Part shown: positions 10,244 through 14,950 of the stretch, one piece after another
Layout of the letters: each line of letters starts with the position of its first letter
How positions within the stretch are numbered: the stretch's first letter is position 1
Source of the DNA: Chthoniobacterales bacterium
GTDB taxonomy: Bacteria; Verrucomicrobiota; Verrucomicrobiia; Chthoniobacterales; UBA10450
Length of the DNA stretch: 64,000 bases
Direction of reading: 5' to 3'
Assembly: GCA_013821455.1 (NCBI GenBank)
Contig: JACDGS010000014.1
Coordinates: 1-64,000 of the forward strand
Translations under genes and position numbers: made by a program
The notes under the pieces: generated by a model
Database searches by the model: none
Seen by the model: the letters and a program-made list of their open reading frames with translations, nothing else
What the model was told of the DNA's origin: nothing

Positions 10244-11467
10244 TCATTTACTCGTTAGGCGAAGAGTGAATCGATTATTCGGTGTCTCCCAAAGTCGAAA
10301 GCGTGTCAGCTGATGATCAAGCCGCCGATCGAACTTCGGCCAAAGGACGCGCACGATATTTTCCCCGGTCGAAGGCTGCGTGAGAAACTCTTCCGTCTCC
10401 AAATCGAGATGCCGATCCTGCCACGGCTGCAGCGCCTCGCCTACTCCTTCCTGAAACTGCCTGAAGTCATAAAGCGTCCCGCTGCGCTCGTCGTAGCGAC
10501 CCGTGATCGTAGCTTCCGTAAGATAGCGATGACCATGTCCTTTCGGGTTATTGCACTTGCCGTAAAGAGACGTGTTTTCTTCCACCGAGAGTTCTCCCGC
10601 ATGCAATCTATGCGCGGCGCAGAAAGATTCCCTCAGCCCCAAATAACGCTCACCGTTCGTCCAGTATTCCGCAAAAAAATCCTCCCGCTCGTGCAGGCGC
10701 ACGCGATCGAGAGGTAACTCTGCCGTGACACGTTCGTGAACGTATTGGGCCAGACTCTCAGTAGTCATCGGGCGATTCGTTAGGCCGCCAACTTCGCGGT
10801 TAAGATTCTTGTGATCGAGCTCGGCGCGCAAGGATGCGATGACTGCGGAAAGTTCGCGCTGCGGCACGAGCAGTTCCGCCGGCTGTGAATTAGCCCCGCG
10901 AAAAGTAAGTCGCGCGCGGTAATGATGGCCATGACCATGCGGTGAAGCGGCTATCCCAAAATGTTCTTTATTTTCCTGCGCACTAAGGTGTGGCGACATC
11001 GTCTGACGCGCCGCCGAAAACGCCAGCCAATGATTCCCTTCCACCATGCCACTCGCGTAATAGGTCGCGCTTCGTTCCGGCGTCTCCTGCAAATGGCAAG
11101 CCACTAACTCTGCCCCAAGATCGCCAAACCGGGAGGCCGTTTCGAGAAAGAGTGAGCGTGCCACATTCTCGGCGGTCGGAGGCTGCTCACGAAAAGCTGG
11201 GTGATCCTCGTTTAGAAACTTGTGGTCGAAATTTGCGAGTAAGACTTCGCCTGCGCGCCGTTTTATTTCACTAATGTTAACCAGCATTCCGTTCGCCGGA
11301 TCGACCGCGCCACTTAGGACGAAAAACGCCACGTAATTGCGTCCGGTCCCATAACGCGCACCGCTCTCGGCGCCGAAAACTGCGACATTCTCCTCGGCCG
11401 TCTTACCCGGCGAATAGAGACGCCGCGAGGCGGAAAATTCCAGACGTTTGCTGACAGTCAACAGCAT
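10244..11467 (-). CDS. Triple 6-pyruvoyltetrahydropterin-synthase-like fusion
   Basis: Three PTPS/QueD-like domains in tandem (about residues 1-135, 145-262, 275-407 from the ATG at 11467). Only domain 3 keeps the full active site: F-C-A-A-H (His286), K-C-N-N (Cys305) and G-H-G-H (His311, His313). Domain 2 keeps G-H-G-H but has Arg for the first zinc His and Ala for the Cys. Domain 1 has Glu at the Cys position and has lost all three His. The family converts dihydroneopterin triphosphate in biopterin, queuosine or folate synthesis. The gene follows folE by 13 bases, so it acts on the FolE product or a derivative. A longer frame to 11542 overlaps folE; I prefer 11467 because it begins exactly at the domain. 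Confidence 0.85.
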   Translation of the reverse strand: MLLTVSKRLEFSASRRLYSPGKTAEENVAVFGAESGARYGTGRNYVAFFVLSGAVDPANGMLVNISEIKRRAGEVLLANFDHKFLNEDHPAFREQPPTAENVARSLFLETASRFGDLGAELVACHLQETPERSATYYASGMVEGNHWLAFSAARQTMSPHLSAQENKEHFGIAASPHGHGHHYRARLTFRGANSQPAELLVPQRELSAVIASLRAELDHKNLNREVGGLTNRPMTTESLAQYVHERVTAELPLDRVRLHEREDFFAEYWTNGERYLGLRESFCAAHRLHAGELSVEENTSLYGKCNNPKGHGHRYLTEATITGRYDERSGTLYDFRQFQEGVGEALQPWQDRHLDLETEEFLTQPSTGENIVRVLWPKFDRRLDHQLTRFRLWETPNNRFTLRLTSK

Positions 11468-11480
11468 CTCGCGATAGCTA

Positions 11481-12101
11481 TTACTGGCGAAGAAGCGCGA
11501 GGAACTCACTTCGAGTCCGCGCGTCATCCTGAAAAACGCCACGCAGACAAGAGGTCTTCATGACCGAGTTTTGTTTCTGCACGCCGCGCATCATCATACA
11601 GAGGTGCTTTGCTTCGATGACTACAGCTACACCTGTAGGATGAAGCGCGCTCATCAGTGCCTCCGCCACCTGAGTGGTTAGTTGTTCCTGGATCTGCAAG
11701 CGCCGCGCAAAGAGATCGACGATGCGCGCGACCTTGGAGAGACCTATGACTTTCCCATCGGGGATATAAGCCACGTGCGCGCGCCCGATGAAGGGCAGCA
11801 AGTGATGCTCGCACATCGAATAAAGCTCGATGTCTTTCACCATCACAATCTCGCTTGCGTCGGAGTGGAAGATCGCGCCGTTAACTATTTCTTCGACTGA
11901 TTGCCGATAACCTTGAGTAAGAAACTCAAAGGAGCGTGCAGCGCGGCCCGGCGTCTTCACCAAACCTTCCCGTCCGCCATCTTCGCCAATGGCTTCGAGT
12001 AAGTCAGCGAAGACGCGCTCCATATGCTCAAGGCGATCGTCCTTAAGGCTGTCGGATTCTCTCGTTAGGCGTTCGGAAGTATTGGATTCGTTCTCGTGCA
12101 C
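11481..12101 (-). CDS. folE: GTP cyclohydrolase I
   Basis: A 206-residue homodecameric zinc enzyme converting GTP to 7,8-dihydroneopterin triphosphate, the first step of folate and pterin synthesis. Diagnostic segments: A-I-G-E-D near residue 37, [10 protein letters not shown] (zinc Cys and substrate-binding His), G-L-S-K-V-A-R, then the second zinc Cys in [11 protein letters not shown] start at 12101; an ATG at 12023 is possible, but it would cut the first helix. The following gene is a PTPS-like fusion 13 bases downstream, forming a two-gene pterin operon. Confidence 0.95.
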
Positions 12102-12388: not shown

Positions 12389-13576
12389 TTAATCCAGCCA
12401 ACTCAACGGATACTTATCGTCGTCGAGTTTCACTGCTTGTTCGGTTAACTCCAAGGTGTGCTGAGTATCGAACATAACCGCTAACTCTTCCGTGCGGAGC
12501 GCGTCCTTGCTCGCCATGATGGTGCCAGGGTGCGGCCCGTGCGGGATGCCGCGCGGATGCAACGTGATCGAGCCCGCTTCGATGCCGCGGCGCGAACCGA
12601 AGTTACCCCTGACATAGAAGAGAACTTCGTCGGCTTCAACGTTATCGTGCACCCAGGGAATCTTGACTGCTTCCGGATGAGTATCGAGCAGGCGCGGGGC
12701 AAAGGTGCAAACGACATAGCCTCGAATCTCAAAGGTCTGATGAATCGGCGGCGGTTGATGCACGGTGCCGGTGATTGGTTCGAAGTCGGACGCATTAAAG
12801 GTGAAGGGATAGACATAGCCATCCCAGCCCAGCACGTCGAAAGGATGATGCGCGTTAGTTACTTTCGTTAGGCGGGGGCCATCCTTGACCAAAATCTCGA
12901 CGTCTTCATCGCGATCGATAGTTATCAGCTCCGCAGGGCCGTGAAAGTCGCGCTCCGAGTAAGGTGAGCCCATGCGAATCTGGCCATCGCTGTTCATGTA
13001 GCGACGCGGGATACGCACCGGACCGGCGGATTCGAGGATTAGGTAGTCTTCCTCTGTTGGATCGTCGGGAACGAGCCGATAAGTAATACCTCGCGGGATG
13101 ACGATGTAGTCTTCCGCGCGATACGGCAGTTTGCCAAACATACTCTCCAGCACACCGCCGCCGTGGAAGACGAAGATGATCTCATCCGCGCCGCCGTTCT
13201 TGTAGTATTCGAATTGACCGAAGTTCTTTTCCGGTTTGCAGCGATAAGCGGTAATGTCCTGGTTGAAGAGCATCGGGATGCGGCCGGTATAAACATCGCC
13301 GCGGCGCGGTATCTCCGCGGTCTTGAAATGATGGTGCCGCAAGGGGCTTTCGGCGGCTTTCTTTAACTCTTCGCATTTGAGTAACTCAACGCTGCGCACG
13401 CGTGTGGGCGGGCGGATGTGATACATGATCGAGTAGGCTTCGTTGAAGCCTTCGGTAGTAATGACATGCTCGTAGGCGATGCCTTCGTTCTTATAACCGC
13501 CATCGGATGAACCGTTGCGGTGATACCAAATGTGATGCTTGCGGGGGATATGTCCGAGCTTCTGATATTGTGGCAT
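12389..13576 (-). CDS. hmgA: Homogentisate 1,2-dioxygenase
   Basis: A 395-residue non-heme iron enzyme that opens the ring of homogentisate to maleylacetoacetate in tyrosine and phenylalanine catabolism. The N-terminus (Y-Q-K-L-G-H-I-P-R-K-H-H), the cupin-like core and the C-terminal H-P-R-G-I-P-H-G-P-H-P-G iron-site region fit the short bacterial form. ATG start at 13576. It lies downstream of hpd on the same strand, separated by a palindromic repeat, so the two encode consecutive steps. The maleylacetoacetate isomerase and fumarylacetoacetase genes are not in the window. Confidence 0.93.
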   Translation of the reverse strand: MPQYQKLGHIPRKHHIWYHRNGSSDGGYKNEGIAYEHVITTEGFNEAYSIMYHIRPPTRVRSVELLKCEELKKAAESPLRHHHFKTAEIPRRGDVYTGRIPMLFNQDITAYRCKPEKNFGQFEYYKNGGADEIIFVFHGGGVLESMFGKLPYRAEDYIVIPRGITYRLVPDDPTEEDYLILESAGPVRIPRRYMNSDGQIRMGSPYSERDFHGPAELITIDRDEDVEILVKDGPRLTKVTNAHHPFDVLGWDGYVYPFTFNASDFEPITGTVHQPPPIHQTFEIRGYVVCTFAPRLLDTHPEAVKIPWVHDNVEADEVLFYVRGNFGSRRGIEAGSITLHPRGIPHGPHPGTIMASKDALRTEELAVMFDTQHTLELTEQAVKLDDDKYPLSWLD

Positions 13577-13804: not shown

Positions 13805-14950
13805 CTAAAGATTTCCTCTCAGATCCTGCTCTCTTTCCAGCGCTTCAAAGAGCGCCTTGAAGTTCCCTTTGCCGAAACTCTTCGCGCCTTTCCTTTGAAT
13901 GATCTCAAAGAACAAGGTCGGACGATCTTCGATGGGTTTGGAAAAGATTTGCAGCAGGTAACCTTCCTCATCCTTATCGATGAGGATGCCTAACTCCTGC
14001 AGCGGTTCGAGATCTTCATCGATCTTCCCTACTCGATCGAGCACGGTCTCATAATAACTCGCCGGGATTTTTAGAAACTCGACGCCCCGACTTTGCAGAT
14101 CTCGCACGGTGGCGACAATGTCCTTGGTCGCAACAGCGCAATGCTGCACACCTTCGCCATCGTAAAAGTCGAGATACTCTTCCACTTGCGACTTCTTCTT
14201 CCCTTCCGCTGGCTCGTTGATGGGAAACTTAACGAAGCCATTGCCGTTACTCATCACCTTACTCATGAGCGCGGAATATTCGGTCGAGATATCCTTGTCG
14301 TCGAAGGTAAGGATGTTGCGGAACCCCATGACATCTTCGTAGAACTTGACCCAAGGGTTCATCTGGTTCCAACCGACGTTGCCGACGCAATGATCGACAT
14401 ATTGCAGTCCGGCGTCCGGCGGATTGTAAGTGCTCTCCCACTTACGAAACCCAGGCATGAAAACACCGTTGTACTTATCCCGCTCGATGAAGAGATGGAC
14501 GGTGTCTCCATAAGTGTGAATTCCACTCATGACCAACTCGCCATGGTCATCGGTCAGTGTCGTCGGCTCCATGAAACTCTTACCGCCGCGTTGGGTCGTT
14601 TCCTTCCAAGCCGAAGTAGCATCGTCGACTTTCAAAGCGATGAATTTCACGCCATCGCCATGCTTATAGATATGATCGGCAATCTCGTTCTTCGAACGCA
14701 ATGGTGTCGTCAGGACGAAGGTGAGCTTGTTTTGCCGGATAGCATAACTCACACGATCTTTCTGCCCCGTTTCCGGTCCGGCATAGGCAAGGCTTTGAAA
14801 GCCAAACGCCGTCTTATAAAAGTGCGCCGCTTGCTTGGCGTTACCGACATAGAACTCGACGTAATCAGTCCCTTGCAGCGGAAGAAAATCGGGTTCGGCC
14901 GACGATCCGCGATTGGCGGCTGCTTTAGGTGCTTCGATAGTTGTTTCCAT
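13805..14950 (-). CDS. hpd: 4-hydroxyphenylpyruvate dioxygenase
   Basis: A 381-residue Fe(II) enzyme of the vicinal-oxygen-chelate fold that converts 4-hydroxyphenylpyruvate to homogentisate. The iron triad is visible: His in Y-V-D-H-C-V-G-N, His in G-V-Q-H-C-A-V-A and Glu in L-F-F-E-I-I-Q-R-K-G. The C-terminal G-N-F-K-A-L-F-E-A-L-E helix that covers the active site is complete. ATG at 14950. With hmgA downstream it gives the two middle steps of tyrosine degradation. A near-copy of the dispersed motif (CGGTTAGGCGC) lies just upstream of the start. Confidence 0.95.
   Translation of the reverse strand: METTIEAPKAAANRGSSAEPDFLPLQGTDYVEFYVGNAKQAAHFYKTAFGFQSLAYAGPETGQKDRVSYAIRQNKLTFVLTTPLRSKNEIADHIYKHGDGVKFIALKVDDATSAWKETTQRGGKSFMEPTTLTDDHGELVMSGIHTYGDTVHLFIERDKYNGVFMPGFRKWESTYNPPDAGLQYVDHCVGNVGWNQMNPWVKFYEDVMGFRNILTFDDKDISTEYSALMSKVMSNGNGFVKFPINEPAEGKKKSQVEEYLDFYDGEGVQHCAVATKDIVATVRDLQSRGVEFLKIPASYYETVLDRVGKIDEDLEPLQELGILIDKDEEGYLLQIFSKPIEDRPTLFFEIIQRKGAKSFGKGNFKALFEALEREQDLRGNL

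Follow-up and report, generated by a model that had tools for sequence, protein, structure and literature searches.

The window analysed here, a 64,000-nucleotide stretch from a Chthoniobacterales bacterium, carries on its minus strand a gene in which three domains of the 6-pyruvoyl-tetrahydropterin synthase (PTPS) family are joined in one open reading frame. This frame, whose place next to folE the earlier sequence-only reading had noticed, starts 13 bases downstream of the folE stop codon, and genes for a homogentisate 1,2-dioxygenase-like protein and for 4-hydroxyphenylpyruvate dioxygenase (HPPD) lie on the far side of folE (Table 1).

Table 1. Features of the triple PTPS locus, with positions counted from the first letter of the window and residues numbered along the triple protein.
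Feature	Positions	Strand	Remarks
Triple PTPS gene, 407 aa	10244..11467	minus	ATG at 11467, stop 10244-10246; homologues exist
Domain 1 (D1), aa 1-138, A-type	11054..11467	minus	Asp-His dyad kept; zinc ligands and Cys all lost
Domain 2 (D2), aa 139-271, A-type	10655..11053	minus	Retains dyad and HGH; lacks first His and Cys
Domain 3 (D3), aa 272-407, B-type	10247..10654	minus	Retains Cys and all three zinc His; lacks dyad
D81-H82, D1 dyad	11222..11227	minus	Invariant in 33 homologues
D218-H219, D2 dyad	10811..10816	minus	H219 invariant, D218 in 32 of 33
H286, D3, His23 equivalent	10610-10612	minus	Invariant
C305, D3, catalytic Cys42 equivalent	10553..10555	minus	Invariant
H311-G-H313, D3, zinc His48/His50 equivalents	10529..10537	minus	Both His invariant
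Q350-D351, D3, aligned with the Asp88-His89 dyad	10415..10420	minus	Placed by alignments to 1b66 and 2g64
folE, GTP cyclohydrolase I	11481..12101	minus	7.3e-76 to TIGR00063; syntenic in relatives
Homogentisate 1,2-dioxygenase-like protein (HgmA)	12389..13576	minus	Syntenic
4-Hydroxyphenylpyruvate dioxygenase (HPPD)	13805..14950	minus	TIGR01263, 451.9 bits, cut-off 277; syntenic

The triple frame is a genuine gene. In a Pfam search the whole protein matches PF01242 (PTPS) at 7.2e-63 in three separate stretches; in the genome profile search, where the cut-off is 22.4 bits, these score singly 81.5, 70.6 and 66.0 bits. A profile built from single-domain PTPS only returns 86 bits for D3, 75 for D1 and 73 for D2, the best of 999 shuffled sequences reaching 4.7 bits, and pairwise identity among the three domains is 22-29%. 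These three matches above the cut-off, together with a match to the PTPS fold, place the protein in the PTPS superfamily (PF01242 / COG0720). D1 and D2, which might have proved unrelated to that fold, are clearly PTPS by Pfam, AlphaFold2 and structure matches.

The active site of rat PTPS consists of the zinc ligands His23, His48 and His50, the base Cys42, the dyad Asp88-His89 and the pterin anchor Glu133. With this register carried over to the triple protein through alignments to 1b66 and 2g64, and with conservation scored over 33 aligned homologues, the parts of the site turn out to be distributed unequally among the domains. In D1 the zinc positions are occupied by R15, T41 and R43, of which the two arginines are invariant and position 41 is Thr, Ser or Ala, while the column of the catalytic Cys holds Glu34 in 32 of the 33 homologues; judging from the residues themselves, the R15-E34-R43 charge cluster may stand in for zinc. 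D2 retains an invariant HGH (H179 and H181), has an invariant R154 where the first His belongs and a small residue in place of Cys. At the dyad place of D3, position 350 is Gln, Arg or Glu and position 351 Asp or Asn, with His there in none of the homologues. The family-wide patterns are R-x-[TSA]-R plus Asp-His in D1, R-small-H-H plus Asp-His in D2, and HCHH without the dyad His in D3, whereas the Glu133 equivalent is kept in all three (E128, E260 and E394), and H353 and W349 of D3 are invariant.

The sequence-only reading was right, throughout the 33 homologues, that D1 and D2 are degenerate, that D1 has Glu in the Cys column and no zinc ligands, and that D3 alone has all zinc histidines and the Cys, but it went too far in calling D3 a complete active site. 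The three zinc histidines and the Cys characteristic of PTPS-II stand together in D3; the dyad that should accompany them is found only when the chain is taken as a whole. Since it is absent from D3 and present in D1 and D2, the chain would work like a PTPS-II, though not like a canonical one. The recurrence of the same residue pattern in 33 homologues argues that the degeneracy of D1 and D2 is neither sequencing error nor decay. Pseudogene decay is likewise rejected by the count of invariant positions over 29 homologues, 44 in D1 and 29 in D2, and D1, with as many as D3 (42), is not decaying. As dS is saturated among the homologues, dN/dS ratios were left out of this argument.

That the protein is instead a QueD of the preQ0 branch or a folate PTPS-III is highly improbable. 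The whole chain does pass the QueD model TIGR03367 (104.2 against 89.25 bits), and Glu occupies the Cys column of D1; however, single domains reach 36.5-38.7 bits each against the same cut-off, so that NCBIfam would call the chain QueD by summing three weak domain scores, and a separate single-domain QueD above the cut-off is encoded elsewhere in the window's genome. QueD was discarded on these grounds. Tandem domains that add up past a whole-protein equivalog cut-off, as they do at positions 10247-11467, are a general trap. PTPS-III was discarded as well: the Glu lies in a domain that has no zinc ligands, not in a zinc site, the neighbourhood is one of tetrahydrobiopterin and phenylalanine catabolism, and FolB, which a PTPS-III would replace, is present in the window's genome (G000:C47) and in 66 of 81 sampled genomes of the family. 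The earlier hint of a folate-type enzyme, and with it the suggestion that folB might be missing, thus falls away.

In relatives, which where named are Chthoniobacterales/Spartobacteria MAGs, the gene order is HPPD, HgmA-like, FolE, the triple PTPS (PTPS3), SDR, a PAS protein and, on the other strand, a phenylalanine hydroxylase (PAH) of ~600 aa. The SDR matches sepiapterin reductase 2bd0 (3.9e-25), among many SDRs, and its role as a sepiapterin reductase is a guess from gene context; the PAH matches 7vgm (3.2e-158). The context expected of a PTPS-II, namely FolE, sepiapterin reductase and an aromatic hydroxylase, is found in most genera, and supply of tetrahydrobiopterin for phenylalanine catabolism is probably the best functional reading of this cluster. 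PTPS3 and PAH tend to occur together (45 genomes with both, 7 and 6 with one, 9 with neither, p=0.0007), an association confounded by incomplete genomes and by linkage. In the window's own genus FolE alone is adjacent, no SDR was found close to the triple gene, and the PAH is elsewhere in the genome.

Three observations concern the neighbours themselves. With only 62 bits, the HgmA-like protein (12389-13576) stays below the equivalog cut-off of 511, although its place next to HPPD is conserved; it may be a divergent homogentisate dioxygenase subtype. Two PAH-like genes occur in the window's genome (G000:C6:2459-3262 and G000:C102:1005-1811), on contigs other than that of the triple gene, whereas most of the family has one adjacent PAH. 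Between the SDR and PAH genes of many relatives lies a gene for a 282-aa protein (L037:4016-4861 and nine other loci) that has a hydrophobic stretch at its N-terminus and a PAS domain resembling that of YheO (PF08348, 8.6e-17), and which could sense pterin or redox state; no such gene was found near the triple gene in the window.

Within the Chthoniobacterales, of which 197 genomes were sampled, the triple form is confined to one family, that of the window, where 52 of 67 genomes have it; matches in the other families are to single-domain PTPS only, and a phylum-wide sample gave the same distribution. Phyla beyond Verrucomicrobiota, Chloroflexota and Calditrichota were covered by a single peptide-pattern scan. 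We found no description of tandem, fused or heteromeric PTPS in the open-licence papers searched, a scope outside which most subscription journals fall, so that absence is unproven.

Single-domain architecture, which the sequence-only reading had taken as the rule for PTPS enzymes, is not general. Chloroflexota commonly encode A-B fusions of two domains, 23 of 40 Calditrichota genomes carry an A and a B PTPS gene side by side, and these forms likewise adjoin FolE and SDR. Two Chloroflexota genomes (G677 and G955) encode a colinear triple PTPS, 34% identical to the window protein over its full length, in which D1 has the dyad only, D2 is complete and D3 has the zinc/Cys set only. In two Chloroflexota genomes (L149:3626-5083 and L150:3423-5000), the two PTPS domains in one open frame are separated by a long low-complexity linker and could make one chain or two. 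When 47 A/B pairs of relatives were tabulated, every A proved to have an intact dyad and every B an intact zinc/Cys set, while dyad changes (to Tyr, Phe, Leu and others) occur in 28 B and Cys changes in 9 A; the single-domain PTPS examined, QueD excluded, all have a complete site.

A domain tree built without the six motif columns separates A, D1 and D2 from B, D3 and single-domain PTPS in one split with support of 99/93. Because D1 and D2 group with A and D3 with B, the triple protein is A-A'-B. Mapped on this tree, five changes in the zinc/Cys state and five in the dyad state fall one-sidedly, zinc/Cys losses on the A side only and dyad losses on the B side only. By chance this would be expected at about 2 x (1/2)^10 = 0.002, assuming equal odds per side and with the caveat that the changes are perhaps not fully independent. 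What emerges looks like a series from paired genes through A-B fusion and two-site triple to one-site triple, although the order of duplication is unsure in detail, some joins lying on long branches.

Each active site of PTPS lies between three monomers (PMC7546909), and the catalytic triad is intersubunit, as a 1995 paper by Burgisser, which both PMC2229834 and PMC7546909 cite, describes it in its title. Since the site is shared among monomers, a domain that has zinc ligands and Cys can do without a dyad of its own, provided that a different domain supplies one, and since the dyad comes from another subunit, complementary losses imply a composite active site. Work by Nar from 1994 reportedly assigned Cys42 and Glu133 to the monomer that holds the zinc, and His89 to one in the opposite trimer. 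We therefore favour, with a probability of roughly two in three, the reading that the triple protein is a 6-pyruvoyl-tetrahydropterin synthase of PTPS-II type, a fused pseudo-trimer with one composite site per chain that serves the tetrahydrobiopterin branch. Counting against it, both D1 and D2 keep the dyad though one site needs only one donor, which is unexplained; the absence of an SR-like SDR beside the gene in the window's genus and the location of this genome's PAH genes on other contigs also weigh against it.

D3 might, alternatively, use the invariant H353 in place of the dyad. In such an account, which we consider unlikely, D3 would work without a donor, another residue such as H353 or D351 shuttling protons, and D1 and D2 would be what remains of a structural ring. 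The invariance of H353 and W349 speaks for it, as does the His that many dyad-less B domains still have at the H353 position, but many complete A domains have a His there too, and the Chloroflexota triples lack it in D3, where the sequence is AFKRL. The almost unbroken retention of Asp-His in D1 and D2 speaks against the account as well, and it does not explain why the loss pattern is lopsided over three phyla.

The sequence-only reading had considered regulation by the degenerate domains. More improbable still is a form of this in which D3 is the enzyme while D1 and D2 bind pterins for regulation, sensing tetrahydrobiopterin for example. The pterin-anchoring Glu found in all three domains is compatible with such a role, which could indeed hold alongside a composite site; taken by itself, however, it leaves unexplained the loss of the dyad from D3 with its retention in D1 and D2, and the equal split in separate A and B proteins.

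The predicted structure agrees with a pseudo-trimer. AlphaFold2 modelled the window protein from 29 homologues with a mean pLDDT of 93.8 and a pTM of 0.91, and the Chloroflexota triple with 91.2 and 0.89. Neighbouring subunits of the PTPS trimer meet where the last strand of one lies against the first strand of the other; in the model, the D1/D2 junction (strands 132-137 and 141-154) and the D2/D3 junction (264-269 and 274-286) are hairpins, which sit where PTPS subunits meet, so that fusion would close native contacts with tight hairpins. The model matches human and rat PTPS structures (D1 with Z 14.4 and an rmsd of 1.7 Å over 136 residues), and its adjacent domain pairs match tandem T-fold uricases (Z ~11, 4.4 Å over 225 residues). 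The prediction supports one chain as a pseudo-trimer that would form a closed 12-strand barrel, half of a PTPS hexamer, ring closure being an extrapolation from the model. The earlier idea of a symmetric assembly within one chain is upheld by the full-chain prediction it had called for, but not as a pseudo-hexamer, which is rejected because three domains would make one barrel.

The composite-site reading would then run as follows. The three T-fold subunits of a PTPS trimer, fused head to tail, would form one 12-strand barrel, and two chains would probably stack like the two trimers of ordinary PTPS. D3 would give the base C305 and the zinc site (H286/H311/H313), and the Asp-His dyad would come from one of the two A-type domains, most likely D1 of the partner chain. 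D1, with no zinc site, and D2, without one His and the Cys, would serve as dyad donor and scaffold. The product would enter tetrahydrobiopterin synthesis, shared by FolE, the triple PTPS and the sepiapterin-reductase-like SDR, for phenylalanine hydroxylase.

In a hexamer of D3 symmetry (the symmetry label, not the domain), subunit pairs from opposite trimers share one two-fold axis, so donation across trimers is reciprocal, and a dimer of rings would adopt one of three pairings: D1-D1'/D2-D3', D2-D2'/D1-D3' or D3-D3'/D1-D2'. The last would leave D3 without a dyad. The Chloroflexota triples fit D1-D3'/D2-D2' exactly, the kept parts being all used and the lost parts all unused, and in Chthoniobacterales the zinc/Cys site of D2 would later have disappeared, so that each chain is left with one site. 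Donation inside one ring, with D2 lending its dyad to the D3 of its own chain, would fit as well. Evenly balanced, in our judgement, is the wider proposal of a heteromeric PTPS branch in at least three phyla, in which the A-type ends as dyad donor only and the B-type as zinc/Cys only, with a Verrucomicrobiota end point in a single-chain barrel whose composite site is completed by D1 of a second chain (D1-D3', D2-D2'), two sites being left of six.

What the family has is a conserved PTPS variant, predicted to be a pseudo-trimer in one chain, whose domains are reciprocally degenerate and probably share one composite site. The sequences firmly establish the fusion, the reciprocal losses with their conservation, the A/B ancestry and the gene cluster; the fold, the chemistry (zinc binding, activity, product) and the geometry (stacking, choice of dyad donor) are predicted. 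The apparent series shows a symmetric enzyme turned asymmetric, with one active site split between paralogous domains. It also makes the intersubunit triad of PTPS directly testable, because dyad and zinc parts lie in different domains and can be altered singly, which a homohexamer does not permit. In addition, a likely misannotation, QueD by summed score, is corrected, and a family of soil Verrucomicrobiota is linked to tetrahydrobiopterin-dependent phenylalanine catabolism.

Animal and bacterial PTPS-II (rat 1gtq/1b66, human 3i2b) have the fold in common with the triple protein, D3 being the best sequence match (1.6e-22) with an identical zinc and Cys motif, and the linkage to FolE and SDR is common to both. 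Known PTPS, however, assemble six copies of a single-domain chain into a homohexamer whose six sites are all alike, while the triple form joins three unlike domains and splits the parts of the site among them. Plasmodium PTPS has Glu at the Cys position, as does D1 only of the triple protein, but retains the zinc histidines (PMC2229834, PMC7546909), of which D1 has none. The Chloroflexota A-B fusions and the Calditrichota A and B genes show the same division of labour beside FolE and SDR, with two domains instead of three, zinc ligands intact in A and often both domains complete. Uricase and GTP cyclohydrolase IB also carry several T-folds per chain, namely two, in barrels of other sizes, and composite sites between T-folds are known; the model's adjacent domain pairs can be aligned to these enzymes, which are without a zinc/dyad split of the triple-PTPS kind. 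The Chloroflexota triples have the same colinear chain, with D1 dyad only and D3 zinc/Cys only, but D2 is still complete in them, so that two sites per chain are possible there.
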